A stretch of DNA of 64,000 bases from positions 1 through 64,000 of the forward strand of contig NZ_JONS01000003.1 in NCBI RefSeq assembly GCF_000711965.1, written 5' to 3'. The stretch is from Actinomyces israelii DSM 43320 (lineage in GTDB: Bacteria; Actinomycetota; Actinomycetes; Actinomycetales; Actinomycetaceae). This document shows, in pieces, positions 913-62,175 of this stretch (position 1 is its first letter; the number at the start of each line of letters is the position of its first letter). Under the pieces are notes generated by a model. The model ran no database searches. It saw only the letters and a list, made by a program, of their open reading frames with translations, and had not been told where the DNA came from. The translations under genes were made by a program, and so were the position numbers.

Positions 913-925
913 ACCGGCACGAGTC

Positions 926-1531: not shown

Positions 1532-1602
1532 CTCCCAAGCATTTCGCGCACGTCGCTCACGCCGCGACACTGACAAAGGGGTCCGGCGTGGCCGGGCCGC
1601 CT

Positions 1603-4600
1603 TCACGAGACTGAGTACAAGCGGTCACGAAGATCGTCCAGCAACTCCTGCTCGCTCTGGTCGTGGTGGAGGAAGAAGTGGTCGCCCTCGAACACGCGCA
1701 ATGCGAAGGAGCCGCTGGTCAACCCCTCCCAAGCGCGCATCTCCTCCTCGACCACGAACGTGTCGCGGCGACCGTGGTAGCCAGCGATAGGAATCGTCAG
1801 ACGCTCCTCGTCGGGGTCGAACTGATACGTGTGCACAAGCCGGAAGTCCGAGTACCCAACGGGTTTGAGTGCATCGCGCATCTCGTCATTGACCTCGATT
1901 CCGAAGCTCTCACTGATGTAGTCCTCGTACTCTTGGGACCGATCCTTCGGCATCTGGATCAACTCCTCCACCTCGGGGAGCGTATCGAAACCGAATTCCT
2001 GGAAGGATTCGACCACGCGGTCATAGACGGGGTTGGACCCGATCGACGGCGACGAGAATGCCCCCACGAACAAGTGCCGCAGCAACCCGTCGGATCGCTC
2101 GGCAAGACGATGGGCCAACCGGAAGGCCACCAAGGCCCCCACACTGTGCCCATAGATCGCGAAGGGCCGATCCATGTAGCCAGCGAGCACCTGCTCGAGC
2201 GCACCCACCGCTTCATCCATCTCGGAGATGGGGCGCTCGTTGATTCTGCCCTCCTTCCCGGGGAACTGCACGGGGCACACGTCGATGTCGTCGGGCAACA
2301 GGCTCTTCCACGAGGCGTACAGCGATGCGCCCTTGATGCCGTAGGGAATGCAGAAGAGCCGGGCGCGCGGTGCCGCGGTCAGACGCTCATGGGCCAGCCA
2401 GTCGCCGGGCTGCGTCGAATACTCGCCGGAGTGCCACGAGACCTGCTCGTCCGCTTCATCTCTGGAACCACTGTCATCGGCGCCGTTGATGATCCTCAGG
2501 ATCGACGCACCCAGACTCTCGATGCTGGGTCCTTGGATGAGCAGTTCCAGCGAGAGCTGGACGCCAAATTCGTTCTTGACGGATCGGCGCAGTTCAAGCG
2601 CGGCAAGCGATTCCAATCCCAATTCCGCCAAGGAGACGTCGAGGGGGACATCGCCGTCCCCGTTGCCGAGGATGTCCTGGACGACCGCGACGAGGTGGCC
2701 ACGAATCCGCGACTCCAGTTCTTCGTCCGCCTCGGAGCTGAGCCCACCCGCCCTCGCGTCCACGACGGTGCCGTCGTCACCAGGCACCCCCGCGACTTCG
2801 CCGGTCAGTTCCTTGGGGATGACACGCAGCCGCATTCCTTGACACCGGGTCATGTAGTTGCCGCTGCCGTCGTACACGTCGAAGTCGACGGAGATGGATC
2901 CGGCCTCCTGGTCATCGACGGCCCACAGATGGCACCAGACCTCTTCTCCCCAACGTCGGTCGGGAACCTCGAAGTGGGCGATGTCCACAGTGATGTAAAG
3001 GTCGTCGTCGGCCAGTTGGTCCCTGCCTGCGATCATGGCCAGTTGTGCACAGGCATCGAAGAACCCCGGCGACAGGTGCGCGGCCGCCGCACCCTCGGAC
3101 GCCCGCGTGCGGATCCTGGCCAGCGCTTGCCGCGCGCCGATCCGCACCTCCTTGACCAGCCTCACCGAGGCCCCCACTTCGAATCCACGAGCGGCGTAGT
3201 CCCGGTAGAAGTCGCTGCCCTCCAAAGTCTGCGGGCACTGGTCCATGACCTCTTGGCGGCCCTCGCTGGTGACCTTCGGACGCATGGGGACGTGACGCGC
3301 ATGGACGGTGCCTCGGGCGTGGAGCTCCCACACGTCACCGTTCGCCTCTCGACTGTGGAACTCGAACGGCTGCTTGCCCTGGTCGTCAGGGCTCCCCATC
3401 ACCATCTGCACGAGGCGGTCGTCCGTCCCGGAGATGTGGAGCGCCTTCACGAACGTGAAATCCTCCACGATCATGTCACCGACCATGCCCAGTTCACGCA
3501 GTGCGTGCTCGACCATGCGGGTGTAGTAGCCGATGTGGAACAGGCCACCGGTGTCCGCGATCTCGGGAAGCAGCCAAGTGTTGATGCGAGCCTCGACCTG
3601 TCGGGTTGGCAGCGGCGACGCGACGAGGGAACCCGGGACCGTCTCCTGGGTCTGGCCGTCGGCGACCGCCACCGGATCCTCGAGGAAGAGCCGGTACTGG
3701 AAGGGGTAGGTCGGCAGATTGAGCATTCGCGCGGGCACGGTCTGGAAGAACCGCTGCCAGTCCATGTCCCACCCCTCCTGGGCCAGGCGCGAGACACCAC
3801 TGGACAGCAGCTCCCAGGCACCCTCCGCTCCGCTCGCCGATGCGACGACGACCGTGTCCGTCCCAGCTCCGCCCAGTTCGCGGCCGGACACGTAGACCAC
3901 GGCCCTGTAACCGCGTCCGAGAAGTGCGGTCATCTGCGCTGCGACGTCCAGAGGTGGGCATGGCTGGTTCCACGAGTCTGCGCCGGTCTGGGCACGACCG
4001 TCGGCGCAGATGAAACGCACTTGCGCGGGGCGCAACTCAACGTCCACCACAGGCCCCTGGCCATGCCTCTGGGCAAGAATCGCCAGGGCCTCGTCCTCGG
4101 TGAGCAGGCCAGCCACCACGGCTGCGGGGATGTCGCCGTCCCCTTCGGCGAGGACGGCTGCGGGTCGAATGCCCCAAGATGTCCACAATCGAGCGACGCC
4201 CAACTGAGCGGCAAAGTCCTGCGCCGCCCGCGTCAGCAGCTCGTCGCACGAGCCGTCGACGCCCGCCTGCTGATGGGCGTCCAGCCACTGGGCAACCTGG
4301 TTCCAGGTGTCGACAAACACCGACTCAGTGGCGAGCTCGTCGAGGATGGCCGAGGGCGCCTCGAGGTGACCGCCGAAGACCATGGCGATGTTGCCGCCTG
4401 CGCCTCGGCTGGAACGCCCCCTGTCGATGGCATCGGTTAGCTGCCGCACGGCGTCGTCGATCGACTTGACGCAGAATCCCCGCCGGACCCTGTGCTGGAC
4501 GCGCCCTTCGCACATGGTTCGACACAGGCTCGCCAGCGAGGTCTCGGGCTGGGCTTCCACGTATAAGAGGAGCCGGCGCATGCTCTCGGCCAGCGGTTCA

Positions 4601-6033
4601 TCCGCACGAGCCGACATCACCAGAGGATAGGCGGTCCTGTGACCGGGCTCGTCCGCCGCAGCATCATCGTTCTCGTCGGCCTGGGTGATGATTATGTGGG
4701 CATTCGTGCCGTTGAACCCAAAGGAACTGATCCCGGCCGCTCGGACAGCCGTGTCCGGCCAGGGCTCCAGGACCGTGGGAAACCTGACCGAGGAGACATC
4801 GGCCGTAATCCGGGAGTTCAGTTTCGTGAGGTGCACGTTCGGTGGCACTTGCGCGTGCCGCAACGACAGAACCGCCTTGATCAGTCCGGCGACGCCCGCC
4901 GCTGCTTCCAGATGCCCGACGACGGACTTGGCCGACCCCACCAACAGCGGGGCCTTCCTGCGCTCGCTCGCGTAGGACTCCAAGGCCGCACGTACCTCGA
5001 TCGGGTCACCTAGAGGGGTCCCCGTGCCGTGCGCCTCGAGGTAATCGACCTGCTCGGGCTCCAATTGTGCCGATTCGAGCGCCTCAGAGATGAGTCGACG
5101 CTGGGCTGCTCCGTTGGGGACGGTGACGCCGCTGCTGTGCCCATCGTGGTTGATCGCGGTGCCGCGAATGACCGCGAGAATCGGTGATCCGTCCGCCTGG
5201 GCGTCGCTGAGTCGGCGCAGGACCACCATGCCGCACCCCTCCGACCTCACGTAGCCGTCAGCCGCCTCGTCGAAGACCTTGCACCGGCCATCCGGGGATA
5301 GCGCGTGCATCTTCGAGAGCATCACGAATGGCGCTGGGGAAAGCAGCGCATTGACCCCGCCCACGAGGGCCGCATCGATCTGCGCGCTGCGCAACGCCCC
5401 GACCGCCAAGTGGACCGCCACCAGCGACGACGAGCATGCGGTGTCGACGGCCAGCGCCGGACCGCTCAGGCCCAGGGTGTGTGAGATCCGGCCCACGGCG
5501 ACGCTCATGACTGAGCCCGTGGCCGCATAGGGACCGATGTCCGTGTTGCGGGGCAAGGTGGCGTACTCGGAGGCCGTCGCACCGACGTACACGCCGATGC
5601 GATGCCCGGGCAGTCGATCGGAAGGCAGCGCCGCAGACTCCAAGGCCTCCCAGCTGGTCGTCAGCAGGAGTCGATGTTGGGGGTCCATCTCGCGTGTCTC
5701 CGCGTCCGAGATCGAGAAGAACGCGGGGTCGAACCGGTAGAGATCATCGGCAAGGAAACCGCCATCGGCGACGTACGTCTTTCCGGGAGCATCCGGATCT
5801 GTGTCCAGATACGCTTCGGCGCTCCAGCGATTGGCGGGCACTCGTGAGATGGCATCCCTGCCCGAGGCGACCAGATCCCAGTACTCGTCGGGATTGGAGA
5901 CCCCACCCGGAAAGTGGCATGCCATCGCTGAGATCGCGATCGGCTCGGTGCCCCGGGACCTCGCCGCTTCGAGTTCATTCCTCAGTTCCTTAATCGTCAG
6001 CAGTGCCCGTCGGATCAATGTCTCGTCTTGCAC
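1603..6033 (-). CDS. PKS-E: terminal PKS module, KS-(decayed AT)-DH-like-ACP-TE
   Basis: This final synthase carries out the last condensation or processing step and releases the chain. Residues 1-30 look like a short coiled-coil docking segment (IRRALLTIKELRNELEAA). KS14 follows at about 32-455 with Cys200, EAHGTGT and AKSVVGHLE all intact. Residues about 480-760 align to an acyltransferase but lack the active site: GHSLGE reads AEGDGD, with Gly631 at the Ser position. A DH-fold region (about 790-1080) has Asp993 in a DxxxQ motif but an unusual FHIGYY in place of HxxxGxxxxP. The ACP has Ser1142 (GLESLAALELR). The thioesterase at about 1225-1470 has GHSVG (Ser1297) and GDHFFLHH and resembles the type II/Pfam thioesterase fold. 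The GTG start at 6033 is supported by AAAGGAGA six bases upstream. The KS sequence and the AT relic resemble cis-AT modules, unlike PKS-A to PKS-D. Confidence 0.95.
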   Translation of the reverse strand: MQDETLIRRALLTIKELRNELEAARSRGTEPIAISAMACHFPGGVSNPDEYWDLVASGRDAISRVPANRWSAEAYLDTDPDAPGKTYVADGGFLADDLYRFDPAFFSISDAETREMDPQHRLLLTTSWEALESAALPSDRLPGHRIGVYVGATASEYATLPRNTDIGPYAATGSVMSVAVGRISHTLGLSGPALAVDTACSSSLVAVHLAVGALRSAQIDAALVGGVNALLSPAPFVMLSKMHALSPDGRCKVFDEAADGYVRSEGCGMVVLRRLSDAQADGSPILAVIRGTAINHDGHSSGVTVPNGAAQRRLISEALESAQLEPEQVDYLEAHGTGTPLGDPIEVRAALESYASERRKAPLLVGSAKSVVGHLEAAAGVAGLIKAVLSLRHAQVPPNVHLTKLNSRITADVSSVRFPTVLEPWPDTAVRAAGISSFGFNGTNAHIIITQADENDDAAADEPGHRTAYPLVMSARADEPLAESMRRLLLYVEAQPETSLASLCRTMCEGRVQHRVRRGFCVKSIDDAVRQLTDAIDRGRSSRGAGGNIAMVFGGHLEAPSAILDELATESVFVDTWNQVAQWLDAHQQAGVDGSCDELLTRAAQDFAAQLGVARLWTSWGIRPAAVLAEGDGDIPAAVVAGLLTEDEALAILAQRHGQGPVVDVELRPAQVRFICADGRAQTGADSWNQPCPPLDVAAQMTALLGRGYRAVVYVSGRELGGAGTDTVVVASASGAEGAWELLSSGVSRLAQEGWDMDWQRFFQTVPARMLNLPTYPFQYRLFLEDPVAVADGQTQETVPGSLVASPLPTRQVEARINTWLLPEIADTGGLFHIGYYTRMVEHALRELGMVGDMIVEDFTFVKALHISGTDDRLVQMVMGSPDDQGKQPFEFHSREANGDVWELHARGTVHARHVPMRPKVTSEGRQEVMDQCPQTLEGSDFYRDYAARGFEVGASVRLVKEVRIGARQALARIRTRASEGAAAAHLSPGFFDACAQLAMIAGRDQLADDDLYITVDIAHFEVPDRRWGEEVWCHLWAVDDQEAGSISVDFDVYDGSGNYMTRCQGMRLRVIPKELTGEVAGVPGDDGTVVDARAGGLSSEADEELESRIRGHLVAVVQDILGNGDGDVPLDVSLAELGLESLAALELRRSVKNEFGVQLSLELLIQGPSIESLGASILRIINGADDSGSRDEADEQVSWHSGEYSTQPGDWLAHERLTAAPRARLFCIPYGIKGASLYASWKSLLPDDIDVCPVQFPGKEGRINERPISEMDEAVGALEQVLAGYMDRPFAIYGHSVGALVAFRLAHRLAERSDGLLRHLFVGAFSSPSIGSNPVYDRVVESFQEFGFDTLPEVEELIQMPKDRSQEYEDYISESFGIEVNDEMRDALKPVGYSDFRLVHTYQFDPDEERLTIPIAGYHGRRDTFVVEEEMRAWEGLTSGSFALRVFEGDHFFLHHDQSEQELLDDLRDRLYSVS
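3753..4596 (-). other. decayed acyltransferase domain inside PKS-E
   Basis: This covers residues about 480-760 of PKS-E. The usual GQGSQ entry motif reads VFGGHLEAPS, the GHSLGEIAAAVVAG nucleophile region reads AEGDGDIPAAVVAG with Ser replaced by Gly631 and His by Glu, and the substrate-specificity and FHS blocks are missing. The tail before the PTYPFQ linker still follows the AT pattern. The module must therefore depend on an AT acting in trans. Confidence 0.8.
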
Positions 6034-6038
6034 GCTGG

Positions 6039-6046
6039 TCTCCTTT
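6039..6046 (-). promoter_or_regulatory. ribosome binding site of PKS-E
   Basis: On the minus strand AAAGGAGA lies six bases before the GTG at 6033 and fixes that start. It sits in the 54-base gap after PKS-D, the only PKS junction in the run without overlap or near-overlap, which fits PKS-E being a separately added gene. Confidence 0.7.
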
Positions 6047-6087
6047 CGTCGGTGCTCGGCAGGGGTGGGGGTCGGGGATTGCAGGGC

Positions 6088-9000
6088 TCACCAACCTGAG
6101 TCCAACTCATCGAGCAATTTGGCGAGTTCGGACTGTGCTTGGCTCGGTGGCGTCTCTTGGGCCCGCTCGATGGGCAACAGGGCCGACAACTGTTCCATGT
6201 CGGCGACCACGACGCCGACCTCGGCCGCATCCCCGGCGAGTGCGACGTCGAAGGTCCTCAGGCCCAATCCGGTGGTGAGCTGAGCGACGCCCAACCGCCT
6301 TCGCATCGTTTCGCGGGTTTGCTCGTCCAGCTCCATGCCGCCATCGCGCCATGTCGGCCAAATGAGGGCACGGCTGAGCCCATGGCGTCGACCGTCGATC
6401 CGGAGTTCCTCGCGAGCAGCAGCGAATGAACCCAGGAACCGGTTGGCGAAGGCGTAGTCAGTCTGTCCGGGATTTCCACCCACGGACGCCATCGACGAGA
6501 AGACCACGAAGAAGTCGAGCCGATCCTCCGACGTGGCCGCGTCGAGGTTGAGTGCACCGGCCAATTTGGGATCGATCACCGTGTGCATCTGCTGTGCGGT
6601 CCGCGTCAGGAGCATCCCGTCGTCCAAGACGCCGGCCGCATGGATGACACCGGTGATGGGCCCCCGGTTCCGAACCGACTGCATGAGCGAGGACACCGCC
6701 GCTCGGTCGGTCACGTCGATGGACTCGTAGCTGGCCTCGGCTCCCAGCCGCCGCAGTTCCTCGATCTGGGTGACGTGGCGCCCGTCCTGAGCTGACCTGC
6801 CGGTCAGGACCAATCGCTTGACGCCAAGGTTGACCAAGTGCCGGGCAACGATCCGCCCCAGGCCACCTGCTCCTCCGGTGATAACGCAGGTGCCGCCCCC
6901 ATCGAGGCGGATCTCTGGCGACGATGATTCGGCCACGTTCGTCTGCCTGAGCGACCGTGTCCACCGCTGCCCCCAACGGTACCGGACCTCGTGCTCGGCT
7001 GAGTCACCACCGAGTTCACGCAGGCAGGCCTCGGCGATGAACGAGACGCGATCGTCCACATGAGCGGTGTCCAGACCCAGCGTGCGAACCACCACGTTGG
7101 GACTCTCGTGCCTGACCGCACGACCAAAGCCACCGAACCCCTCATGGACGGGATCAGGCGTGCCATCGAACACGTGGGCGTAGACGATGTCCACAGGGCG
7201 AGTGGGGCGAGACCTGACGACGGCCTGCACCAGGTGGAATGCGGGGAACGAACATTCCCCCTCCGCGCCATCGGCGTGGACCGTCCTGGTGGGGCGGAGG
7301 TCGAGAATGACGTCGGGCATCGTCCCCAGATCGTCGAAGAGCCGTCGAAGATCGTCCGGCTCGTCGCGCCCGATCCTGAAGGTGGACTGGTCACATCGCG
7401 CATATGAGTTCCCGGCAAGGACGAGGACCACCGGCTGACCCGGCCACATCCCACGCGCAAGGATGTACTCTCGCACTGCGTCATCCGCGTCAAGGATGAC
7501 CAGCGGTCCCGTGGGCAGATCGTGGTTGGGGGCCGCGACCTCCGACGTCACCCAGTTCGCGGTGTAGATGACGCGCTCCAGAGCCGAGTCGTCCACGAGC
7601 TCATCCCGCCCCTCCTCCAACGGAGCCGTGGCGCTCGACCACGTCCGGGAGAGCTCCGCTGCCAGCTCCTCGATCGTTGGATGGTCGAACATGGCATTCG
7701 CATGCAGGACGATGCCAAGGTCCAGCTCGACCTGGTTCACCAGCCTCGTGGCGAGCACGGAATCCATTCCCATCTCGAAGAAGCCGCTGCGACCATCCAC
7801 GCGGGAAGGATCCGGCATCTCGAGCAGTTCGGCGACCTTCTCGCCGAGGTACACGGTCAGGATCTGACCGCGCTCGCCCTCGGTGGCGTCCGACAGCTCG
7901 CCCTTGAGCCCAGTGCCGATATCGGACGATGCACCGGGGGCGCTCACAGCCTCGGCATGAGGCGCCAGCGGCGCGGGGGCGGTCGGCTCGGAGCCGCTCG
8001 GCCGTGACGCATCGAAGGGATCGACGATCCAGTACGACACGCGCTCGAAAGGGTAGGTCGGCAACGGCACCCGCCCGGGCGTTCCGTGGGGGTAGAGCTG
8101 ACGCCAGTCAGGTTCCTCTCCACGGAGCCACCGCCCGGCCAGGTCGCTCGCGAGGCCCCGCGCCGACTCCCCTCGGTCCGTGTCAGGATCGCGCGGTCCC
8201 CCGTCCCCGGCACCTGAGCGGGGGGACCCAACCTCGGTGACCCGAAGATCATTGGACTCCCGGCCCTCCCGGGCGAAGCTCTCCAGAGTCTCGGCGGCTG
8301 CCTTGGGGTCGCTCGCCAGGAGGGCGAGCCTGTGCTTCAGCGATCGCCGACCGTCCTGGAGGGTCCAGGCGATCGACGAGAGATCCCCCTCGCTCGGCCC
8401 CACGCCCCTGAGATGCTCGGCCAACCTCGATGCTGCACTCCTCAGCGCAGACGGGGTCCTGGCTGACAGGACGAGAACCACGGGGCCGTCGCCCCGCAGC
8501 CGTCGGTCCTCCACTGGCTTGGGCGCCCCCTCGACGATCACGTGGACGTTGACGCCGCCGGCCCCGAAGGAGCTCACCCCGGCCCGTCTGCGGCCGCCTC
8601 TCCCCGCAATTGGCCATGGTCCCAGTGAGCGCTGCACCGTGAAACCTGCACTGTCGAAGTCGATGTTCGGGTTCAGATTGTCCGAGTGGATCAGCGTCGG
8701 AACCATCTGCGCGTGGGTCAACTGCAGGACGACCTTGTGCATCTGAGCGATTCCCGCAGCCGCCTCGGCATGACCGATGTTCGACTTGACGGAACCGATC
8801 GCACAGCGGGACGGCCTGTCGTTGGCGTCCCCCAAGGCTCCGACCAGACCCCTGATCTCCAGCGGATCACCAAGGCTGGTCCCCGTGCCGTGCGCCTCCA
8901 CGTAACTGATGGTGTCGCTGGTCACCGACGCATCAGCCAACGCCGCCGAGATCACCTCGGTCTGAGCGACGGGGTTGGGCACACTGTACCCGAACGTGTG

Positions 9001-53900: not shown

Positions 53901-55401
53901 GCGCAGCTCCCAGCTCGGTCAATGCCGCCGTGAGGGCAGAGAGCTCCGCGCTGTCGCCCACAGGCGACCCGGTGCCTTGCGCTTCCAGGAGGCGCACGCT
54001 ATGCACGTCGGTCTCGCTGTCGCAGTACAGCTTGACGATCATGTCACGCATGGATCGGGTGACCGGCGCCATGATGGACGGCGCGCGTCCGTTGTGGCTC
54101 ATTGCGCTGGCTCGGACGATCGCGTAGACGTGATCGCCGTCGGCCAGCGCTGACGGCAAGGCCTTCAGGACGAGCACTCCCACACCATCGCCGAGCACCA
54201 TTCCGTCGGCGTCTTCGCGGAAGGGACGACACCGTCCGCTGGTGGACAGCAAACCCGCCTCTGCAGCAAGCGCCTGGAACCGCGGCGAGGTCACGAATAC
54301 TCCGGCAACGATGGCGAGCTCGCACTCTCCACGCCGAATGCTTTCCGAGGCCATGTGGAGCGCCGCCAAGGACGAGGTGCATGCGTCGTCCACCGTCACG
54401 CAGGGGCCCCTCGTGTCGAACCAGTGGGCGAGCCGACCGGACAAGACGGACATCTCGTTGCCGAGCAACGCCTGGGAAGAAGGCCCGTCCACCCCAACGA
54501 CCTGATCCTCGTAGCCGCCGACCTTCGCTCCGACGAAGACCCCCACACGGTCACCTGCCAAGGAGGCCGGGTCATGCCCGTAGTCCTCGATTGCGTGATA
54601 GGCCTCTTCGAGCAGCAGACGCTGCTGGGGATCCATCCTGCGCGCCTCACGAGCGCTGATGCCGAAGAACGGCGCGTCGAACCGGTCTGGGGTGGGGATG
54701 AGCCCGGACGGAGCCTGGTCGCAACGCCAGGTGATCGAGCCCTCATTCCTGGCGTCGGCCCCCCACAAGGCCGCCTCGAGCGCGTCGACGTTGTCGAGAT
54801 CCGCGAATCTCATGGACTGACCGACGATCGCCACGGGCACCGTGGCTTCCTCTGCTGGCGTCGAATCCGATGTGAAGTCGACGAGCCGGTCGTCGGGCGC
54901 GGGCGTGGAGAGCAGCGACTCGATGTGCCCCGCGAGTTGCCCGGGAGTGACGAAGTCAGAGATTGCCTCGGCGCCGAGGCTGATCCCCAACTCGTCGTTG
55001 AGCGCATCGACCAAGTCGGCGGAGTCCACCGAATTTAGCCCCAAGTCCGCCCATGTTCGGGCCGGGTCCCAAGGGCCGACATCCTGCCTCAAATGCACCT
55101 TGGCCAGTCGTTCGACGACGTCAGACAGGGAATCACGGACGGGGGACATCGTCATGCGGTCAGCCGAAAGCAGCTCCTCGGCGGCCGTGGACAGCCCAGC
55201 CAGGGTCGGATGGTCGTAGATCGCCTCGGCACCGAGGGTGAGGCCGTACTCGGCGTTGATCTCGTCGACGAGATCGACACCGAGGACCGACGTCAACCCC
55301 TGCTCCGCCATGGGTAGCGACGGGTCGATCTCCGCCTCGTCGCCGTTGGTGATGTCAGCAAAGAGGGAAAGCAATCGAACAAGGACGGGGGTGGGAGTCA
55401 C
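41938..55401 (-). CDS. PKS-A: first trans-AT PKS, ACP-ACP-KS0-MT-ACP start
   Basis: Order: ACP1 (Ser38), ACP2 (Ser124), KS1 (about 189-615, Cys341), C-methyltransferase (EVGAGTGGTT from Glu960), ACP3 (Ser1211); KS2 (Cys1460), KR1 (Tyr2260), ACP4 (Ser2413); KS3 (Cys2692) with an embedded Ser-less ACP-like fold (Ala3034), DH1 (His3213 in HVVHGSRTLP, DGALH present), KR2 (TGGRGRIG near 3632), ACP5 (Ser3913); KS4 (Cys4168); docking helix (about 4455-4487, LERLLDAVRDGQLTVDEA). KS1 reads EAQGTGS instead of EAHGTGT (Gln475), so it probably does not condense. No AT is integrated. It is inferred to be first in the line because it has no upstream docking partner, opens with tandem ACPs and is first transcribed. 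KS4 continues on PKS-B. The GTG at 55401 is placed by CAGGAGA seven bases upstream. Confidence 0.96.
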   Translation of the reverse strand: MTPTPVLVRLLSLFADITNGDEAEIDPSLPMAEQGLTSVLGVDLVDEINAEYGLTLGAEAIYDHPTLAGLSTAAEELLSADRMTMSPVRDSLSDVVERLAKVHLRQDVGPWDPARTWADLGLNSVDSADLVDALNDELGISLGAEAISDFVTPGQLAGHIESLLSTPAPDDRLVDFTSDSTPAEEATVPVAIVGQSMRFADLDNVDALEAALWGADARNEGSITWRCDQAPSGLIPTPDRFDAPFFGISAREARRMDPQQRLLLEEAYHAIEDYGHDPASLAGDRVGVFVGAKVGGYEDQVVGVDGPSSQALLGNEMSVLSGRLAHWFDTRGPCVTVDDACTSSLAALHMASESIRRGECELAIVAGVFVTSPRFQALAAEAGLLSTSGRCRPFREDADGMVLGDGVGVLVLKALPSALADGDHVYAIVRASAMSHNGRAPSIMAPVTRSMRDMIVKLYCDSETDVHSVRLLEAQGTGSPVGDSAELSALTAALTELGAAPHSCVLGSTKSVLGHAVAASGMAAVAKVLASFRRGEVPGWVGGEADHRHLSSHDSPFVLGATPTRLASDGELPTRAGVNAYAFNGTNVHVILEQFKPARRSIGRERSQLVPVSGRTDEALRGNLAALAEWLATHDAALGDVAYTLQVGRQHHARRRAFVVDDCRTLRLQIEQALSQEGGMEPFWSSGDRWLDGERQGGSDPGSPDISADELTDLFRGYCGGATVDFERLHVSDHRQRLSLPGYRFDDHRYWIGGPTDMESASSAPHDAGPERSSVAPELSARELDEHERAHSALTAWAMQTLFAVLADAAGDWARGSSHTVDALADSVQVIDRHRQHFEHLVSMFVREGFMRAAGDHLQITASAQPMAALDERRQDIEREFAEAAVYTPLLALCFEHYPDILAGTRTSVEVLFPKVSDTPMSRLYTGNQMADLCNDLVAWQCVQHILDKVPAGRTIKMIEVGAGTGGTTRPVLEALNRWKDRIDYAYTDLSLAFSTWGAKKFQKEFPRVHFARLDISADPGEQGFAYDDADIVIATNVIHATPDIRESTRNLHSLLRPGGVLVLNELTGCPDVYAMAAGLLDGWWLFRDPEVRIPESPLLDATHWSSVLSDGGFGPTTVLGPTVGRYGVSQNVMVAAKPASIRQELRRTPGREDAGHRVDSPEAARSRRDHGQSGSDALRATVLRSVVEAVEADVAGVDADTVFVELGVDSLIAPELVATLNSALGTQLSASVLFEHSTPNQLIEHLRDSGVERDPGSWEVREAPTPTMGLVTPARQVHANLEPPAADDDVIAIIGMSGTFPDARDPEAYWDNIVKGRCSVRPVPRERWDVDAVYDPDPDRLDRTYCKVAGLIPDADLFDPLFFRMSGRDAQITDPQQRVFLEHAWKALEDAGYPPVSLGGTKCGVYVGCVANETPLLNELEGASADPGATMGSYSSVLAARISYLLDLHGPSISIDTACSSSLVALHLAVQSLRSGETDMALAGGVFVMPSARFHVAMSNMSLLSSAGACRPFDSRADGFVPGEGAGALVLKTVGAARRSGDRILAVIRGSALNHDGASNGFTAPSARAQTDLAEEVYRQAGIDVTSIGYAEAHGTGTRLGDAVEAESLTAAHRRFTAARTYCALGSVKAGMGHAAAAAGVAGVIKVVQALRHATIPPTWHVNTPSDLMVWDESPFYFPEQATPWKAPEQGPRRATVSAFGLSGTNAHVLLEEAPAPEHADRDGGLEHVVVVSGHTETALRRNEEALLEWVERGDCDAAPQLEAIARTTQLNRTAHGHRVAVLASSTSELVTRLREHLQRGESEAVFEGQTMAQPSSIASLFSDRAGHDFLADLARRRRLEPLAWAWVDGLDVPWAELHGEPLAPPVSLPPYRFDHINFQRRPSEPAGSVVYSTRHFEVNVPAWRPEPAPSSVEPPRRLLLMGDESDIAAVRRHWPSTPIILVGQVSEDELVPVGESWRISPRSAGDFDKLLAAQAGDVPIDVLNLWPLHAGSDTSVDPAIGASLHLVGAAGRTSARVRRVVCVTRRGSVPQPFDDAAAAVGHSAALVAPEMTFTLLRVDGAASVGECVDHAVSEWAASDPEVLRRDGARFVPELAAPAAADEPIVIRRGAVCLVTGGMGALGRIVSRHLASTLAAHLVLVGRSAPTLETSEHLESLKSSGAASAVYLQADVSDVTAMREVVRSVRQQRGGVHAVVHAAGVLDSRPLSAMDERALEGALKAKVEGVQVLDEVTRDEDLDAVILFSSASAVLGDFGLGGYGVANRFLDAFCEYRNHLRAQGARRGATVSIDWPLWEDGAMRAGGQRLHQQASGVVPLGTAEGLAIFDTVLARGISTAVVMPAVHDGAAPAPRADADHLPTVDTTGGAAEPARPETAGSESLREQVLDATARALGIEVERIDLEADLADYGFDSVSLKTHARRLTEELGIPVSPTVFFACGTLGEVLRLLVDQHGDQIEVPSASRAPERDADPADATDSLLGDAPAPVPNGHSDLLRPGDLTDGLANDAAAVNPVMDVREDASMPIAVVGMAARFPGAGNIEEYWRNLVGGVDSIVEIPRDRWDWRDWYSADGDREGRSVSKWGGFIGGVDEFDSRFFKISPLEAEMMDPQQRLLLQTAWAAIEDAGWKPESITGRRLGVFVGAQFHEYAQLLASAGLSQAQIGTGVEHSMLANRISYLLDAHGPSEVVDTACSGALTAVHRAMRSLRSGETEIALVGGVSLMLTPRYHVLTTQMGVASPSGRCRTFGANADGYVRGEGVGVLTLKPLAQAIRDNDHVWGVLRGSAVGHGGHAHSFSAPNPRAQADLLLAAWDDASVDAADIGYIEAHGTGTELGDPVEVEGLSTAFDESARRSGRAPAIGACGLGSVKTQIGHLEPAAGIAGLVKLILALRHHIMPGTLNALPRNPYLELEGSPFTVVDRSTVWPAPVIDGEPRRGGVSSFGFGGANAHVVVEEHRQEPPAGEPAGGVGDPRVVMLSARTDAQLRRSARHLADFLSRDFDRHLERVRVVLGEWLGVPFSELDGDTTLGDVGLDAASIASVVSRLRSQCGARPHGLVVGLDTTVAELAAGLPATVDLGDVAYTLAVGRTAHPRRYAVVVGSIDELVERLEQFADGREAETLVGGSGDSDEEAAARDWLRGEDVDWSTYMSGRKVSLPTYSFEPSRHWFSGPEPVAGTVPDAPPTHPFAGSVDEREGIWTLTTTLRGGELFLRDHVVHGSRTLPGVAFLELARYAAGLHIGGTISVVKDLIWAKPLVAGPSPVELRSAASAGPGGTVSIEFTSDEGIHARARCLVSESAQTQQPLPIAAIRDRLTPFASGVQCYERLRGSGLEYGSSFQCLDEVWSSADEALARWTRAPQPASEQRGWVLDPATFDGALHTLLALVDQSSGNPSVPFSMGEVRIHAPLPSNGWAHATRRGQGAGHVPRFDLRITDGDGAVCVDVHDLALRQMAPAANGSYGDPEVAIGDPSTTDGVLAFAPCWVPGDLGEAAQKDRPVQVLCVGEASRLRHALETDVSVRTATVEDVFHACRDLVAQRNPGRLVIVTDRRDPVGEGLAGLARTSRLENPELAVSVVQTDGLPDVERVRQEVSRGDDDVVVLHGADGRFRQSLREIELPAPSGRPFREGAIAVVTGGRGRIGRLLAEHLVGRGVAGVVLIGRHPADAETERWARQLGVPVMLEDANVTDRAATAAALGRARDRFGGLHVLVHAAGVVRDGALARKSDADWVDVVEPKVRGAEVLDELTARDDLDLFVLCSSCSGVLGNAGQADYSYANCRLDAFARQREELVELHRRSGHTVSIAWPLWRDGGMTVPGHVVDRLRQALGMAPMPTAVGLEVFDAATLSNQTRVGVAFGDVSTLREKLLVEDQPRDLPDASPAADEDALMRVVANLLRVDVSELDVDEDITNYGVDSIMMISLMKAIERELGVIVEPGVLAEQATIRDMAGALSGMAPEVSVPETERSLSDPSSSSEVGSLSSAPSRSSEPRPAGVGGHDGRLAVIGMAGRFPGAATLDDYWRNLVDGRDVVTEIPSDRWPLDGFFSADKTAAQRSYSRWGGFLDDIYGFDAARYRITEADALAMDPTHRMLMELADELWADAGYDAAELAGSRTGVFIGGGESNYVNRAADRLLPEFERKMVVNTIPNMMAARLCDAFDMHGPAQVIDTACSSSLVAVHNACRAVLAGDCEQAIVGGIELLVDGYLHVALSKAEVLADDGICYVFDERAKGMVLGEGAGLLLIKPYDAAIRDGDNVRAVILGSAVNNDGRTMGLTVPSAEGQEEVLRRAYAAAGVSPASISYLEAHGSGTLLGDPIEIRAASKVLGEHGSGIGHCGVGSVKSNVGHLLRAAAMPSVVKVVLSLQHRQIPPTLHCENPHPRFRFSESPFRPVTELEPWHVPGGGARRAGVSSFGFGGTNAHLVLEEFNAPPGFVLRRRPHPAPSFSRKQFRLRAHGESAGVGEDELERLLDAVRDGQLTVDEAFDKVEGLR
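46198..46404 (-). other. embedded Ser-less ACP-like fold in the KS3 linker
   Basis: Residues about 3000-3068 of PKS-A interrupt the KS3 linker with an ACP-like pattern (LERVRVVLGEWLGVPFSEL, then LGDVGLDAASIASVV). The serine position is Ala3034. The linker block 'DVAYTLAVGR' resumes straight after it. Confidence 0.7.
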
Positions 55402-55408
55402 TTGTCAA

Positions 55409-55415
55409 TCTCCTG
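55409..55415 (-). promoter_or_regulatory. ribosome binding site of PKS-A
   Basis: CAGGAGA on the minus strand, directly after the methyltransferase stop and seven bases before the GTG at 55401, selects this GTG as the start. The 14-base gap leaves room for nothing else. Confidence 0.7.
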
Positions 55416-56270
55416 TCAGATTGTCGGTCGTCTGGCGGCGCTCACATGAAGTTGTCGGATCTGGGCATGTCGGGGACTTCGCACAACGTCACGCCAGCGT
55501 CGTGAAAGGTGGCCCATGGTCGAACTGCTCAGGTAGCCGTCCTGAACGAGTCGCGACGGGATGCTGATGCCCTCGGAGCGCGAGAAGATCTCGTCACCCA
55601 GCACCGCACTGTGCGCCGCGACGATGTCGTAGTCAACGTCGACGAACCCGGTCGCGCGCAGGAGCAGCGGAAGGTCTCGGCCGATCAGTGGGTTGCCGCC
55701 CTCGTCCTCGCGCGCCCTGCAATAGGCCGAGTACACCTCGCGCAACTCCGGCACTGGCGGGCTCGCCATGAGATGCATCTCGAAGTCGTTGTCCACTACG
55801 ACCGCACGTCCGCCAGGTTTAGTGATCCGAAGGATCTCGTGCAGCGCCCTCTCGGGATCGGGCAGGTGCTCGAGGACGAGTCGCACGAGCACGAAGTCGA
55901 ATGCCCCTTCTTCGTAGCCAGTGTCCAGAATGCTCGCCTCTCGAACGGTCACGTCCAACGACTCCTCGGCGAACATTTCGCGAGCGCGCACCACCAGGTC
56001 GGGATCGAGTTCAAGCCCGTGCAGTTCGAGACCGGGAAACTCGTGGGCCATGTGGCGCAGAACGAAGCCGGGACCACACCCCAACTCGACGACCCGACGG
56101 GCGGCGCCGAGCCCGTAGGACTCGTAGAGCCTTCTCTCCTTCTCCCAGAAGAGGTCGACCTGGGCCGAGAGCCGCGCCGTCTCGGCGTCAATGCCGGCGC
56201 CGATTGAGCAGACATCATACGAACTGGCACGGGTGCGGGACGCGACGACAGGAGCTCCTTGCTGCGGCAT
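55416..56270 (-). CDS. class I SAM-dependent methyltransferase
   Basis: This 284-residue protein has the Rossmann methyltransferase signature: motif I VVELGCGPGF at about residues 60-70, an acidic LHGLELDP after strand 2, and RLVLEHLPDPERAL followed by TKPGG. There is no signal peptide, so it acts in the cytoplasm. The substrate cannot be read from sequence. The family includes O-, N- and C-methyltransferases, and its place directly before PKS-A suggests a tailoring step on the polyketide. It differs from the in-line C-methyltransferases of PKS-A and PKS-B, which sit inside modules. Its ATG overlaps the hydrolase stop as TGATG, so it is translationally coupled. Confidence 0.85.
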   Translation of the reverse strand: MPQQGAPVVASRTRASSYDVCSIGAGIDAETARLSAQVDLFWEKERRLYESYGLGAARRVVELGCGPGFVLRHMAHEFPGLELHGLELDPDLVVRAREMFAEESLDVTVREASILDTGYEEGAFDFVLVRLVLEHLPDPERALHEILRITKPGGRAVVVDNDFEMHLMASPPVPELREVYSAYCRAREDEGGNPLIGRDLPLLLRATGFVDVDYDIVAAHSAVLGDEIFSRSEGISIPSRLVQDGYLSSSTMGHLSRRWRDVVRSPRHAQIRQLHVSAARRPTI

Positions 56271-57082
56271 CAGCGCTCCTCCAACGATTCGAGGAAGTCG
56301 ATCAGTCGGTCCGCGACCGCAACCCAGTTCGAATCGAGCATGGCCGCGTGGCCAACGCCGGGCACGATGGTGGCGTCCACGCCATAGGCATCGGCAGTCG
56401 CGTGATTCACCTGCGGGGCGAAGAACAGGTCCTCTTCTCCCCCGATGACCGCCACCGGCACGCCCACCGACTTGGGGTCCCGCAGAACCGTCCGTGACAG
56501 TTGCTTTCCGGCACGCTGTGATTCTCCCTGCATCCGGCTGCCGTACGAGACGAGCGTGTCCTTGTCGAGATCGCCGGCGAAGAACATCCCGTAGGGGAAG
56601 GCCGCCCGATCAGCAGCGTCCTCGGGGCCGAGCTTGCCGCTGTGCAGCTTCCACAACTTGACCATGGCCCCCATGCCGAGCTTCATCCACGCCAGCGCCT
56701 CCTTCCCCCCGACGCCGGACGGGGGCATCGAGGACAACAGCACGACGCCGGACACAAGGTCCTCGTCAGCGCCGAGGACCTTCTGAACGATGCCACCACC
56801 CATCGAGTGACCGACAACGACCGGTCTCGTCGGCATGGCCTTCAACGTCTCGACGACGTCCTCGACGTACTGCTCGAGCCTCAGCGATCTGAGCGGCTGC
56901 GTCGTGCGGCTTGCGCCATGTCCCCGCAGACTGACCGCCCACGAGCCGTAGCCCCGGTCCGCCAGATACGGCTGGAACTTCTCCCAGCACCATGCCGCGA
57001 AGTATCCGCCGTGGACGAAAAGGACGGTGGTGCCACGCCCCTCCCCCGTCGGTTTCACCCGAATCGTCTCCAAGTCCAGCAT
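56270..57082 (-). CDS. alpha/beta hydrolase
   Basis: This 270-residue alpha/beta-fold hydrolase has an oxyanion motif LFVHGGYF (about residues 22-29), the nucleophile elbow VGHSMGGG (Ser about 93) and the catalytic-His motif VPGVGHAAML near the C-terminus. IGGEEDLFF probably holds the acid residue. It lacks a signal peptide. Possible roles are hydrolysis of an ester or thioester on the product or an aberrant intermediate, or lactone opening or closing. Nothing in the sequence decides among these. GTG at 57085 and ATG at 57082 are adjacent; I chose the ATG, which sits behind AGAGAAA. About 105 bases separate it from the AT gene upstream. Confidence 0.85.
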   Translation of the reverse strand: MLDLETIRVKPTGEGRGTTVLFVHGGYFAAWCWEKFQPYLADRGYGSWAVSLRGHGASRTTQPLRSLRLEQYVEDVVETLKAMPTRPVVVGHSMGGGIVQKVLGADEDLVSGVVLLSSMPPSGVGGKEALAWMKLGMGAMVKLWKLHSGKLGPEDAADRAAFPYGMFFAGDLDKDTLVSYGSRMQGESQRAGKQLSRTVLRDPKSVGVPVAVIGGEEDLFFAPQVNHATADAYGVDATIVPGVGHAAMLDSNWVAVADRLIDFLESLEER

Positions 57083-57187
57083 CACGTTTCTCTATCGGTC
57101 TGCATCATCGGTTTCGAGTAAGTCATCCAGTCCGTCTGCGTCATCCAGGCGCGTGACCGATCGGATGCCATGCGTCAACGTGGTCAG

Positions 57188-60100
57188 TCAGCTTGCGAAA
57201 TCTGCGAAGCCCCGTGCCCTCGAATCCAACAACCGGCCCATTTCGGTCATCAGCCTGATCCCGATGTCATCGACGCGACGGTTCCGCCAGTTCTCGAACT
57301 CGGTGCCCTTGACCCACTGGTTGAACGCCCCCAGCGCCGGTCCGCAGTGGACTTGGAAGTCGACCACTTGGGTCTTGTCTCCGGCTAGGGCGAGCTGCGT
57401 CGAATGGGCGAGGTACCACTTGAAGACCGCCAGCATCTTCTGCCGATCGGTGGGCGCTTCCCCGCAGTTGGTGCTGACCCGCGACTTCACCTCGTCCCAG
57501 ATGCTGTCGAAGGAGCGACGGAAGTACCGCTGCTCGAGCTGGTGGCGCGTGTCCACATCGATCGCCTCCCAGGAGTCGAACTGGCGGTACAGGGAGTAGA
57601 GCTTGTTCGCGCGAGCCGGGAAGAACACTCCTCGTCGCAACACCTGCACACGGCTTCCCAGCTCGAACATGTCCCCCGCCGGCGCGTAGTCGGTGTCCTG
57701 GACGTTGATGTCCTGAAGAAGGTCCTTCACCACGTCGCTGGCCCCGGACTCGACGGTGCACTGGTTGATCGAACCGGTGACGATGTACTCAGCGCCGAGC
57801 AGGTAGGCGGCGGCCGCAGACTCAGGAGTTCCGATACCACCGGCGCCCCCGACTCGCACCCGAGGCAACTGCGGCGACTCCTCCTGCATGCGGTCCCGCA
57901 GACGGGCAATGGTGGGGATCAGGGTGAGGGCGACCGCAGCGTCCGTGTGCCCACCCGAATCAGCCTCGGCCGTGACATCGTCTGCCATGCGCACGTCACG
58001 CGCGAGGCTCGCCTCCTCGGCCGTGATGACCGCCGCATCCTTGAGCTGCGAGACGATCGATTCCGGCGGCGGGCTCATGAACGCGGCAGCGACCTCGGGG
58101 CGGGAGAGTTTGGCCATGACCCGGTGCGGTGTGATGACCCGCCCGTCCGCACCCCTGTGCGCGCCGTTGAGTCGGAACCGGACCAGGGCCGGACTCACAT
58201 CAATGAAGGCGGATGCCTCGATCACGTTCACGCCTCGCGAGAGCAGCAGATCGACCAGCTCGTCCTCGCGTCGAGGATCACCGTGACTGTGCAGAAGGTT
58301 GAACCCAAACGGCGTCCCCGCCGGAAGCCGCCGCTGGAGATAGTCGATCGAAACGCCGACCTCGGACAGTGGCATTCCCCCAGTGCCGACGAACCCGAGC
58401 ATGCCGGCCAGCGCGATACGCTCAACGAGTTCCTTGGACGCAATCCCGCGATACATCGAGCCGGTGACATAGGGATGCTTGAGCCCGTATGCCGAGCAGA
58501 GCGTCTCATTTCCGGGCGCTGGCACGGGGGCGGACTCAACGCGCGGCTCTGGTTGTCCCGAAATGACCGATCGACGTACCTCCTCGGCGCGGGTCGTCTT
58601 CTCGTTCTGAGCCTTCGCGTCGCTGCGCACAATCGCGCGTGTCAGGCCGGTCAGCACGTTGCCGGGACCGACTTGCTCAAGGGTCGCTCCGGCGCGCAAC
58701 AGGTAGCGCACCGTATCAACCCACTGCACGGGAGAGGTGATCTGCTCGGCAAGAAGGCGCGCCGTGTCCGCGTCATAGGGGCGAGCGGTGACGTTTGAGA
58801 TGACTGGGCAACAAGGCCTCCCAAAGGAAATACCCTTCAGCTGTTGCTCGAACTGCTCCCGCGCATCGCGCATGTAGCGGGAGTGGAACGCACCGCTGAC
58901 GTTGAGCGGCACGAAGCGTGCCCCCGCCGCCGTGAAGAGCTGCTCGCAACCCAGCACATCTTCACGCATTCCGGAGATGACGACTTGCTCGGGCGAGTTG
59001 AGGTTGGCGATGTCGACGGCCTCCTGGCCGCCCTTGGCGAGGACTGCGGCCACAGCGTCTTCGCCAAGTCCCAGGATCACGGCCATTCCTCCACCCCGGG
59101 TCCGAGCCATCAACTGACCTCGGATCTTCACGAGGGACAGCCCCGTGGCGAAGTCGACAATCCCTGCCGCATGGAGCGCGTTGTACTCACCCAAGCTGTG
59201 TCCCGCGACGAAGTCGGGAAGAGGCGCACCGTTCGCTGTCTTGCTGAGATAGCTCAACGCATTGACGACGTAGAGGGCTGGCTGCGTGAACTCCGTGTTG
59301 TCCAGGCGATCCTTCGGACCGGCGAGGCACAACTCCTTCACCGACCAGCCGAGGATCCGATCGGCCTGGGCGAGCTCTTCCGAGTGCTGATCAAAGAGCT
59401 CATGGCCCATACCGATGGACTGTGAACCCTGACCTGGGAAGACGTAGGCGAGCAACTCGTTGCCATCGGGTCTCCCGGACGGTTGTGGTGACATGAGACG
59501 GAGCTCCTCCGTAGTGGTGTCGACGGATTGGGGGGTGGTTGAGGCGCATCGGCCCCTCCCCGTGGGGTCTTGGTCGGACAACGTGGACAACTTCTCGACC
59601 ATGTGGCTGCTGCTCATGAATGGCGTCACCAGGGCGTGACTGGACTCGGCGGGAATGGAGTGCTGGCGCAGGATCGCGGACATCGAGGTTCCCGGTCCGA
59701 TCTCGACACAGCGATAACGCCCCGACTGGGCCATTGCCCGTAGGGCGGTCGCTGCCCTGATCGGTTCTCGGAAGACGCGCCACCAGTGGCCGGGCTCGAG
59801 CGAGTCCACTCGTCCACCAGCAGCACACGAATAGAAGGGCACTCGCAGTGATGCTCCCGCACCCGCTTCCGTGCGGGCTGGAGGCTTCAGGGAGTCAAGC
59901 CGCCTTGAGTGGAACGGATACCTCACCGGCAGCGCGACGTAGTTGACGGCGGCGGCATCCAGTTCGGCCTGCAACGACTCGAGGTTGTCCAGCCCTCCCG
60001 TCACGACGAAGTGCTCCGGCCCGTTCACCGACACGAGGTCGCACTCGTGTCGGGCGGCGATGCCATCGTGCCATACCTCCGGACGGGCAAACACGGCCAC

Positions 60101-60502
60101 CATTCCGCCCGGAGAACACTGCTCGACAATTCGATCGGATTGTTCACAGATCATTCTGACCGCCATCTCGGCCCCGAACCCGCCAGCGAACGTGGCCGCT
60201 GCCACCTCTCCCAGGCTGGCCCCCACCAAGCAGGTCGGCTGCACCCCGCGTCGGATCAGGAGCTGCGATACGGAGTACTGGAGCGAGAAGATCGCCGGAT
60301 GGCTCACGCGAAGGTCCGTCACGGCGTTGGCCCACTCATCACCATACAGCGCGTCCAAGAACCCGTCGCCGCGGTGATCCCGCACCACGGTGTCGATCTG
60401 CTGCATGTCCCTTCTGAACTCGGGAAACCGCAGCCAGAGGTCGTGCCCCATGCCGGGGAACTGGGAACCCTGCCCGGGAAAGATGAATGCCCAGTCACGC
60501 AT
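57188..60502 (-). CDS. trans-AT protein: AH-like AT / malonyl AT / PfaD-type ER
   Basis: This discrete acyltransferase serves the AT-less modules. Domain 1 (about 1-290) begins MRDWAFIFPGQGSQ and has GASLGE (Ser about 96) and PFHS. The Arg that normally binds the malonyl carboxylate reads Gln (ICEQSDR), the pattern of PedC-type acyl hydrolases that clear stalled chains. Domain 2 (about 335-620) has GHSLGEYNAL, KIRGQLM with the Arg, and AFHSRYM, typical of malonyl-specific trans-ATs. Domain 3 (about 660-1104) is an FMN enoylreductase of the PfaD/nitronate-monooxygenase type, with RVRVGGAGGIGTPESAAAAY and EYIVTGSINQ. The same AH-AT-ER order is known from MmpC of the mupirocin pathway. The ATG at 60502 overlaps the PPTase stop by eight bases and has GGGGTGG before it. 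An ATG 150 bases further upstream would add residues with no domain and lies inside the PPTase gene. Confidence 0.93.
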   Translation of the reverse strand: MRDWAFIFPGQGSQFPGMGHDLWLRFPEFRRDMQQIDTVVRDHRGDGFLDALYGDEWANAVTDLRVSHPAIFSLQYSVSQLLIRRGVQPTCLVGASLGEVAAATFAGGFGAEMAVRMICEQSDRIVEQCSPGGMVAVFARPEVWHDGIAARHECDLVSVNGPEHFVVTGGLDNLESLQAELDAAAVNYVALPVRYPFHSRRLDSLKPPARTEAGAGASLRVPFYSCAAGGRVDSLEPGHWWRVFREPIRAATALRAMAQSGRYRCVEIGPGTSMSAILRQHSIPAESSHALVTPFMSSSHMVEKLSTLSDQDPTGRGRCASTTPQSVDTTTEELRLMSPQPSGRPDGNELLAYVFPGQGSQSIGMGHELFDQHSEELAQADRILGWSVKELCLAGPKDRLDNTEFTQPALYVVNALSYLSKTANGAPLPDFVAGHSLGEYNALHAAGIVDFATGLSLVKIRGQLMARTRGGGMAVILGLGEDAVAAVLAKGGQEAVDIANLNSPEQVVISGMREDVLGCEQLFTAAGARFVPLNVSGAFHSRYMRDAREQFEQQLKGISFGRPCCPVISNVTARPYDADTARLLAEQITSPVQWVDTVRYLLRAGATLEQVGPGNVLTGLTRAIVRSDAKAQNEKTTRAEEVRRSVISGQPEPRVESAPVPAPGNETLCSAYGLKHPYVTGSMYRGIASKELVERIALAGMLGFVGTGGMPLSEVGVSIDYLQRRLPAGTPFGFNLLHSHGDPRREDELVDLLLSRGVNVIEASAFIDVSPALVRFRLNGAHRGADGRVITPHRVMAKLSRPEVAAAFMSPPPESIVSQLKDAAVITAEEASLARDVRMADDVTAEADSGGHTDAAVALTLIPTIARLRDRMQEESPQLPRVRVGGAGGIGTPESAAAAYLLGAEYIVTGSINQCTVESGASDVVKDLLQDINVQDTDYAPAGDMFELGSRVQVLRRGVFFPARANKLYSLYRQFDSWEAIDVDTRHQLEQRYFRRSFDSIWDEVKSRVSTNCGEAPTDRQKMLAVFKWYLAHSTQLALAGDKTQVVDFQVHCGPALGAFNQWVKGTEFENWRNRRVDDIGIRLMTEMGRLLDSRARGFADFAS

Positions 60503-61232
60503 GGGCCACCCCCGCGACGAGTGCCTTCGTTGAGCCGAATCCTTCGAGCTCCGTGTCGCGCGGATGCCCCAGAGCCACCGCGTAGTTTCCGATTCGAACC
60601 GCCCTGGCCCCGTACTGGATGAGATTCCGGAACCGGATGCGGTACCCATCATGATCTGCGACCACGGACGACACCTCGAGCAGCGAGGACGGCACGGTCA
60701 GTCCCGTGAGCATCGCCTTACCCACCGCCTCCTTGGCGCACCACAGATAGGTACTCATCTCGAGCGTCGGCACCCGGTGTGCGAGACACAAACTGACCTC
60801 GCTGTCGACCACTTGGGATCGCAGGGCGGCCTCCCGCTTCCGATCGATCAGCTCGATGTCGATTCCCATGGGATGCCCGACGTCGAAGGCGACCGCCACG
60901 GCGCATCCGCCGCTGTGAGCGATGCTGACCCCGACCCTCGCCGACTCAGGGCAGCGGACGATCGGCTGTCCGAACACACCAGGCTCGATGAGGATCGAGG
61001 AAGGACGAAGCCACGTCGCGAGCTGCGCGCAGATCGCCAATTTCGCTGCATGGTGCCCAGCCACGAAGTCCGACCGCCTCTTGTCGGACCTCGCGCGCCC
61101 CAGCTGCTCCCACTCGTGGGGGTGCAACGACTCCACGAAAGACGACCAGTCGCCGACGGGAACGCAGCTGATGACCGCTTCCGACTGACGGTCCGAGCGC
61201 GACAAACGCAACCGCCTCGTGCTCTCGAACAC
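60495..61232 (-). CDS. Sfp-type 4'-phosphopantetheinyl transferase
   Basis: The protein transfers phosphopantetheine from CoA to serines of carrier domains, and so activates the 16 Ser-bearing ACPs of this locus. At 245 residues it has the Sfp-family length. The two metal- and CoA-binding signatures are present: PMGIDIELID and WCAKEAVGKA. The conserved histidine-serine region VGVSIAHSGG precedes them. It is the first gene of the biosynthetic run and its end overlaps the AT gene by eight bases. The GTG start at 61232 follows GGAGGTGA at a rather long spacing, so a nearby downstream start cannot be excluded. Confidence 0.92.
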   Translation of the reverse strand: MFESTRRLRLSRSDRQSEAVISCVPVGDWSSFVESLHPHEWEQLGRARSDKRRSDFVAGHHAAKLAICAQLATWLRPSSILIEPGVFGQPIVRCPESARVGVSIAHSGGCAVAVAFDVGHPMGIDIELIDRKREAALRSQVVDSEVSLCLAHRVPTLEMSTYLWCAKEAVGKAMLTGLTVPSSLLEVSSVVADHDGYRIRFRNLIQYGARAVRIGNYAVALGHPRDTELEGFGSTKALVAGVAHA

Positions 61233-62174: not shown

Positions 62175-62175
62175 G

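Follow-up and report, generated by a model that had tools for sequence, protein, structure and literature searches.

The 64,000 nucleotides analysed here (the window; positions 1 to 64,000 of contig NZ_JONS01000003.1 from Actinomyces israelii DSM 43320, assembly GCF_000711965.1) carry a trans-acyltransferase (trans-AT) polyketide synthase (PKS), in which the acyl carrier proteins (ACPs) are predicted to be loaded by an AT acting in trans. We assign a probability of about 80% to the reading that this synthase is functional and that the DNA carrying it was transferred recently. The line was compared with its copies in a congener, G062, whose genome is a single 3.22-Mb contig, and in G188, a metagenome-assembled genome (MAG) labelled Propionicimonas. 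The line itself is new and its product is not recognised; it is of a kind already known, and its end is chimeric.

A search of the whole genome with PF00109 gave 19 ketosynthase (KS) matches, 14 of which fall within window positions 5200-54837 on five long open frames. This agrees with an initial annotation of the DNA, which had described 14 KSs on five proteins. The five PKS genes run collinearly on the minus strand from 55401 to 1603 and overlap or are narrowly spaced; all features given below lie on this strand unless stated otherwise. Domain order was determined with Pfam on the segments between the KSs and rechecked with hidden Markov models (HMMs) that had been trained on the domains of the window itself. 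With DH for dehydratase, KR for ketoreductase, cMT for methyltransferase, TE for thioesterase and psiACP for an ACP-like insert lacking the serine, PKS A (41938..55401, 4487 aa) reads ACP-ACP-KS1-cMT-ACP-KS2-KR-ACP-KS3[psiACP]-DH-KR-ACP-KS4, PKS B (29657..41941, 4094 aa) DH-ACP-KS5-KR-ACP-KS6-KR-cMT-ACP-KS7-DH, PKS C (18114..29660, 3848 aa) KR-ACP-KS8-KR-ACP-KS9[psiACP]-DH-KR-ACP-KS10, PKS D (6088..18138, 4016 aa) DH-ACP-KS11-DH-KR-ACP-KS12[psiACP]-ACP-KS13-ACP-KR and PKS E (1603..6033, 1476 aa) KS14-(AT relic)-DH-like-ACP-TE. The tandem ACPs at the N-terminus of PKS A (54907..55386), possibly a loading unit, both hold the serine. KS1 (53632..54843) has Cys-Gln-His in place of Cys-His-His, and this loss of the first catalytic histidine is common to the window, G062 and G188 copies. 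Altogether the own-domain HMMs identified 19 ACP-like stretches, 16 with the serine and three without. Seven of the nine KRs carry the Asp that marks B-type KRs; KR2 and KR5 do not. A further KS at C3:84301 was rejected as part of the cluster: its translation is a FabF-type KS, about 20 kb away and on the opposite strand.

Neither Pfam nor the own-domain HMMs detected an intact AT in PKS A to E. The sole trace is a degenerate stretch in PKS E (3754..4416), which scored 18.6 bits with PF00698 (cut-off 32.7) and has AEGDG at the GHSxG position; PKS A to D have none, so the earlier statement that no functional integrated AT is present holds. The AT that is predicted to act in trans is part of a discrete AH-AT-ER protein (57188..60652), which was identified by profile searches and had also been noted before. 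Its second AT domain (58625-59452) scored 406 bits with TIGR00128 (cut-off 260.9) and contains GHSLG and GAFH, the motifs of malonyl ATs; a discrete malonyl AT, as is expected of a trans-AT PKS, is thus present. The PfaD-type enoyl reductase (ER) domain (57224-58513) reached 585.8 bits with TIGR02814 (cut-off 449.25). The first, AH-like AT domain (about 59654-60499) has GASLG; on visual inspection, the arginine seen in the second domain is missing from it. The protein more likely starts at window position 60502 (MRDWAF) than at 60652, because in G188 the longer frame is interrupted by a stop.

Seven KSs (1, 3, 4, 5, 8, 9 and 14) were typed with phmmer against the PDB, and KS2, 6, 7, 10, 11, 12 and 13 by the KS tree only. 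The top row, 7zma, was excluded each time, since its score sums two KS domains. Which PDB chains count as trans-AT is partly our own assumption; the best cis-AT chain seen was CurL. Trans-AT KSs scored highest for five of the seven KSs: KS3 (484.8 bits versus 381.0 for CurL), KS5 (406.9 versus 366.4), KS8 (466.8 versus 367.4), KS9 (504.7 versus 393.6) and, only narrowly, KS4 (370.2 versus 364.0). For KS1 the two types were not separated (251.0 for trans-AT versus 240.3 for cis-AT), and KS14 is treated below. Together with the missing AT in PKS A to E and the discrete malonyl AT, these trans-AT-type KSs bear out the trans-AT assignment.

The KS phylogeny proposed with the initial annotation was carried out as a tree of 41 rows with three reference lines (macrolactin, bacillaene and thiomarinol), in which 16 of 38 inner branches were starred and 10 were open. 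The reference records carry no product names, and we presumed their identity from neighbouring genes and layout. The line of Bacillus velezensis pDMB05-1 (L104/L105) we take to be mln, by its adjacency to pdhA and its gene layout, and L106/L107 we take to be bae, by layout. The KS//KR split between MlnD and MlnE, described in PMC9113145, agrees with the mln naming. The tree placed KS1, whose branch is long, together with KS2 and KS7 in an alpha-methyl group (99/95). KS3 and KS6 grouped with mlnKS6 (92/97) and KS9 with mlnKS2 (82/93); both of these reference KSs follow hydroxy units. KS8 and KS12 formed a pair (100/100) that was joined by mlnKS3 (98/85), which in macrolactin follows a saturated unit; on this ground the trans ER was assigned to modules 7 and 11, and the units of these two modules are read as probably saturated. 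KS4 and KS10 clustered with mlnKS8, mlnKS11 and baeKS3, all located at KS//DH splits (100/98). The tree thus supports hydroxy, alpha-methyl and ene units, and together with the DH tree and the domain order it upholds the earlier prediction of ene, hydroxy, alpha-methyl and possibly beta,gamma-shifted units.

In the proposed pathway PKS A to E would act in gene order, and the ACPs would be loaded in trans by the helper protein, whose AT is malonyl-specific. The tandem ACPs, KS1 and the first cMT would prime an alpha-methylated starter, KS1 being probably unable to decarboxylate normally. Eleven extensions would follow, by KS2, 3, 5, 6, 7, 8, 9, 11, 12, 13 and 14. The expected units are an L-hydroxy (module 2), an ene or shifted ene (modules 3/4), an L-hydroxy (module 5), an alpha-methyl D-hydroxy (module 6), a unit saturated by the PfaD-type ER (module 7), a D-hydroxy (module 8), an ene or shifted ene (modules 9/10), a second unit saturated by this ER (module 11), an unreduced unit (module 12) and a hydroxy unit (module 13), before the captured cis-AT-type terminal module, after which the TE, as already suggested in the initial annotation, would release the chain. 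A macrolactone or a linear acid is the probable product, to be exported by the ABC pair next to the line. It tells against this scheme that KS5 and KS11 pair with each other (100/100) without a close reference. Beta-branching at the tandem ACP of module 12 was rejected, the first "ACP" being a serine-less insert. A second reason was that the window genes examined include no recognisable gene for an HMG-CoA synthase; the whole genome was not searched for one.

The count of about 11 extensions, which agrees with the earlier estimate, is supported by the domain sequences because KS1 lacks the first catalytic histidine and KS4 and KS10 stand at KS//DH splits. KS4 (42148..43416) and KS10 (18360..19631) are C-terminal and separated from DH4 (41012..41815) and DH10 (17179..17994), two dehydratase folds of possibly enoyl-isomerase-like type. 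The proteins end 69 (KS4) and 81 (KS10) residues past the KS without a match to the flanking subdomain; the motif search for this subdomain also failed on KS6, which does have a Pfam match. According to PMC9113145, KSs at KS//DH splits lack the flanking subdomain. We favour, at moderate odds, a mere passing of the chain across the split by KS4 and KS10, with an enoyl then isomerised or dehydrated again by DH4 and DH10. In the DH tree both domains grouped with the bacillaene enoyl isomerase (90/86) and not with three bimodule DHs, and the best PDB match of DH10 was PksR (4u3v). Several observations speak against this reading. Only three of 20 branches of the DH tree were starred and long-branch warnings were raised; the best PDB match of DH4 was a dehydratase (5hqw); and DH4 and DH10 retain the Asp that enoyl isomerases are reported to lose. 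Moreover, KS4 and KS10 keep Cys-His-His, and the macrolactin KS8 and KS11 with which they group extend the chain.

The last point belongs to an alternative in which KS4 and KS10 extend as well, giving type B-like bimodules with 13 units instead of 11, in which ACP4 and ACP10 would be served by the ketoreductase of an adjacent module. Strong constraint would suit it, as the ratios of nonsynonymous to synonymous change (dN/dS) of KS4 and KS10 against G062 are 0.08 and 0.10, KS4 and DH4 (0.11) being among the most constrained domains tested. In the hangtaimycin study (PMC8456789) type A bimodules have the order KS-KR-ACP-KS0//DH-ACP and type B bimodules KS-KR-ACP-KS//DH-ACP-KR. No KR follows ACP4 or ACP10 in the window, which is the type A order and unlike type B, and we regard extension by KS4 and KS10 as unlikely. 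The second halves of the window units share the order KS//DH-ACP with the dehydrating bimodules of that study; they differ in that the first halves already hold a DH (KS3-DH-KR-ACP and KS9-DH-KR-ACP), that the second KS keeps Cys-His-His and that the KRs look B-type.

The terminal module has a different character. Among KS structures, KS14 (4693..5949) resembles those of cis-AT lines more than those of trans-AT lines: CurL scored 519.6 bits over KS and flanking subdomain, and the highest-scoring single trans-AT KS reached 363.4. Because KS14 is CurL-like and a degenerate AT lies behind it, a cis-AT line is the probable source from which this module was captured. By eye, PKS E seems to start with a coiled coil resembling cis-AT docking domains. 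The TE domain at its other end (1630..2361, PF00975) carries GHSVG. The AT site is decayed in all three copies, and the dN/dS of the relic (0.21 against G062 and 0.10 against G188) shows that it is constrained like the rest of PKS E.

The three serine-less inserts lie in the flanking subdomains of KS3 (46186..46395, GLDAA, 10.7 bits), KS9 (22506..22700, GLDIV, 17.7 bits) and KS12 (10714..10938, GLDPV, 26.7 bits). Taken together they showed 13 nonsynonymous and two synonymous changes against G062, and seven and three against G188, all small numbers; ten KSs tested for contrast had dN/dS values of 0.08-0.26 against G062. The changes fit a decaying relic. An AlphaFold model covering the KS12 insert was too weak for use, with a mean pLDDT of 56.2. 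Such inserts were not found in the literature under the terms tried, and they may well be described, given that the macrolactin line holds two of them, each after a KS.

These inserts, the decayed AT, the absence of the HxxxGxxxxP motif from DH14, which also counts against our main reading, and an ABC-F gene broken in two of the three copies could indicate that the whole line is a decaying pseudo-cluster. The PKS genes are free of frameshifts and stops in all three copies, and the only internal stop in the compared genes lies in the AT frame of G188, upstream of the likely true start. Across 11 genes the dN/dS was 0.11-0.40 against G062, and across nine genes 0.11-0.33 against G188; the exporter genes were left out of the latter comparison, as the G188 contig ends there. 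The values were higher for DH3 and MT6 against G062 (0.55 and 0.58) than against G188 (0.22 and 0.28). With the KSs and even the AT relic under constraint, we judge a pseudo-cluster to be highly improbable.

Recent transfer is the second part of our reading. A block at 1396..63363 is shared collinearly with G062 at 97.27% nucleotide identity (blastn, 61,992 aligned columns). Over the first 2,972 of 3,981 bases, identity to the rpoB-bearing stretch of G062 is 90%; it is 79% for the gene next to the bordering tRNA-Val and 85% for another stretch of the flank. In G188 nine compared genes are 97.8-98.9% identical, while the rpoB region reaches 78% and the flank 75%; the more distant genome holds the closer copy of the cluster. 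The GC content of the block is 67.1%, versus 69.7-72.9% in the chromosomal flank. Among 49 congeneric genomes only two, own included, encode the AT-ER protein at 96% identity or above; the loading half of PKS A was found at E 1e-100 or better in two of 396 genomes of the order (own and G062), and in a phylum sample of 396 genomes in its own and as one partial match of 34%. As the identities of the block exceed those of rpoB in both comparisons, the line seems, on this sequence evidence, to have moved between species recently and to be maintained. It weighs against the transfer that G188 is a MAG whose copy lies on a contig of 66 kb with hardly anything else on it, which may be misbinned. That the high identity reflects slow evolution or contamination, to which this contig and the position of the cluster at a contig start in a window assembly of 102 contigs would lend themselves, is very unlikely, given that in the single contig of G062 the block is internal with other DNA on either side, that its junctions differ between the two genomes and that synonymous change over the block genes is about 6% versus 10% at all sites of the rpoB region.

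In the window the block is flanked on one side by a plus-strand remnant of an IS1634-family transposase (421..912; NF033559 133 bits, cut-off 100, profile positions 323-481 of 483) and on the other by tRNA-Val (tac; 63364..63437), the chromosomal border; it stops a single base short of the 3' end of this gene. There is no support for an insertion at tRNA-Val that duplicated the tRNA end: only one copy of the 21-base end was found, and the other border lies past the contig start. ARAGORN found no tRNA at the G062 block in L064 or L067. The tRNA lies beside the same gene in all 11 relatives' loci examined, and the other flank is common only to L081/L082/L083/L087 and to L080/L084 (tblastx); a hot spot at the 3' side of tRNA-Val is suggestive only. 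In G062 two identical inverted copies of an insertion sequence (IS) of 1,570 bases (L064:7984-9553 and L067:15342-16911) bracket the block, and many further IS fragments occur in the region. A serine recombinase and an IS110-type transposase lie beside the cluster in G188 (L092:54-2174 and 3131-3799). A search of the plasmid collection with the IS border gave no match, and with window 40000-63363 nothing near beyond about 75 bases in three records.

Between PKS A and the helper gene lie a free-standing SAM methyltransferase (55416..56270; PF08241 75.7 bits) and an alpha/beta hydrolase (56270..57085; PF12697 95.1 bits), and upstream a 4'-phosphopantetheinyl transferase (60495..61232; PF01648 36.4 bits, cut-off 25). 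An ABC-2 permease (61365..62204; PF12679 75.6 bits) and a DrrA-like exporter ATPase (62176..63078; PF00005 99 bits; TIGR01188 208.1 bits, under the cut-off of 312.45) follow. The span of 1603..61232 given in the initial annotation was confirmed as cluster; it omits this exporter (61365-63078), which is part of the shared block.

On the other side of the line the window holds a plus-strand 3' remnant of an ABC-F ATPase gene (923..1531). The gene is whole in G188 (L092:4465-6108, 547 aa), where it adjoins PKS E; about its last 600 bases remain in the window genome, where the IS1634 remnant cuts it, and about its last 140 in G062. The best of 162 NCBIfam models for the G188 protein was ribosomal-protection-like (263.9 bits), followed by Vga (170.7), TlrC/OleB-type (164.4) and EttA (155.7). 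Because such a gene adjoins the line, there are hints in the sequence that the product targets the ribosome. Set against these, the best score misses the ribosomal-protection cut-off of 380, and the broken gene speaks against a present need for it in the window genome and G062. We hold only tentatively, and as rather doubtful, the wider proposition of a self-contained trans-AT line, mobile between genera and with a captured cis-AT end in which the AT decays and its scaffold is retained, that makes a new ribosome-targeting polyketide against which ABC-F was the original self-protection.

The module order had not been recognised from a described pathway, and no characterised line with the same order was found, MIBiG not being among the sources searched. 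With the AT protein as query, the species-genome collection yielded 35 loci, of which one was 98% identical and none of the other 34 exceeded 47%; a literature search found no publication joining Propionibacteriaceae, trans-AT and polyketide. The macrolactin synthase is similar in its trans-AT character, KS//DH and KS-DH//KR splits, AT-type helper gene and serine-less inserts, and each of KS3/6, KS4/10, KS8/12 and KS9 has an mln KS in its group. It has 11 KSs instead of 14, best KS identities of 42-54% and another module order, and lacks a cMT, the tandem-ACP/KS1 start and the cis-AT-type end (own-domain HMMs). The bacillaene synthase shares the KS//DH split with baeKS3 (Cys-Asn-His) and a KS-enoyl isomerase-ACP unit near DH4 and DH10, but is an NRPS hybrid with an HMG-CoA-synthase beta-branching set, none of which was seen in the window gene list. 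A second congeneric trans-AT line (G131 C2:670000-749999, L071-L073 and L095; G156 C21, L094) also has a PfaD-type ER fused to an AT, but this AT-ER is only 47-48% identical, AH is a separate frame and the domain order differs. A large trans-AT PKS accompanied by beta-branching genes is found on a plasmid of Azospirillum argentinense (L100); its KS-cMT-ACP stretch and the first such stretch of PKS A are 34.6% identical. The high-GC actinobacterial host, set in the initial annotation against lines best known from Bacillus, Pseudomonas, Burkholderia and symbionts, adds little surprise, for large trans-AT lines are not rare in actinobacteria, those for hangtaimycin and phthoxazolin A from Streptomyces among them.

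The terminal module looks like an intermediate between cis-AT and trans-AT organisation, with the AT site gone and the residual scaffold still constrained. The diversification of trans-AT lines has been attributed to the exchange of module blocks, and the three near-identical copies of a whole line, in genomes whose chromosomes have diverged, would be a fresh case of the transfer of an entire line. Since the genome of G062 is complete, there may be a culturable producer. Should the ABC-F hint hold, the line would lead to an inhibitor of translation, still unexplored, from actinobacteria with small genomes.

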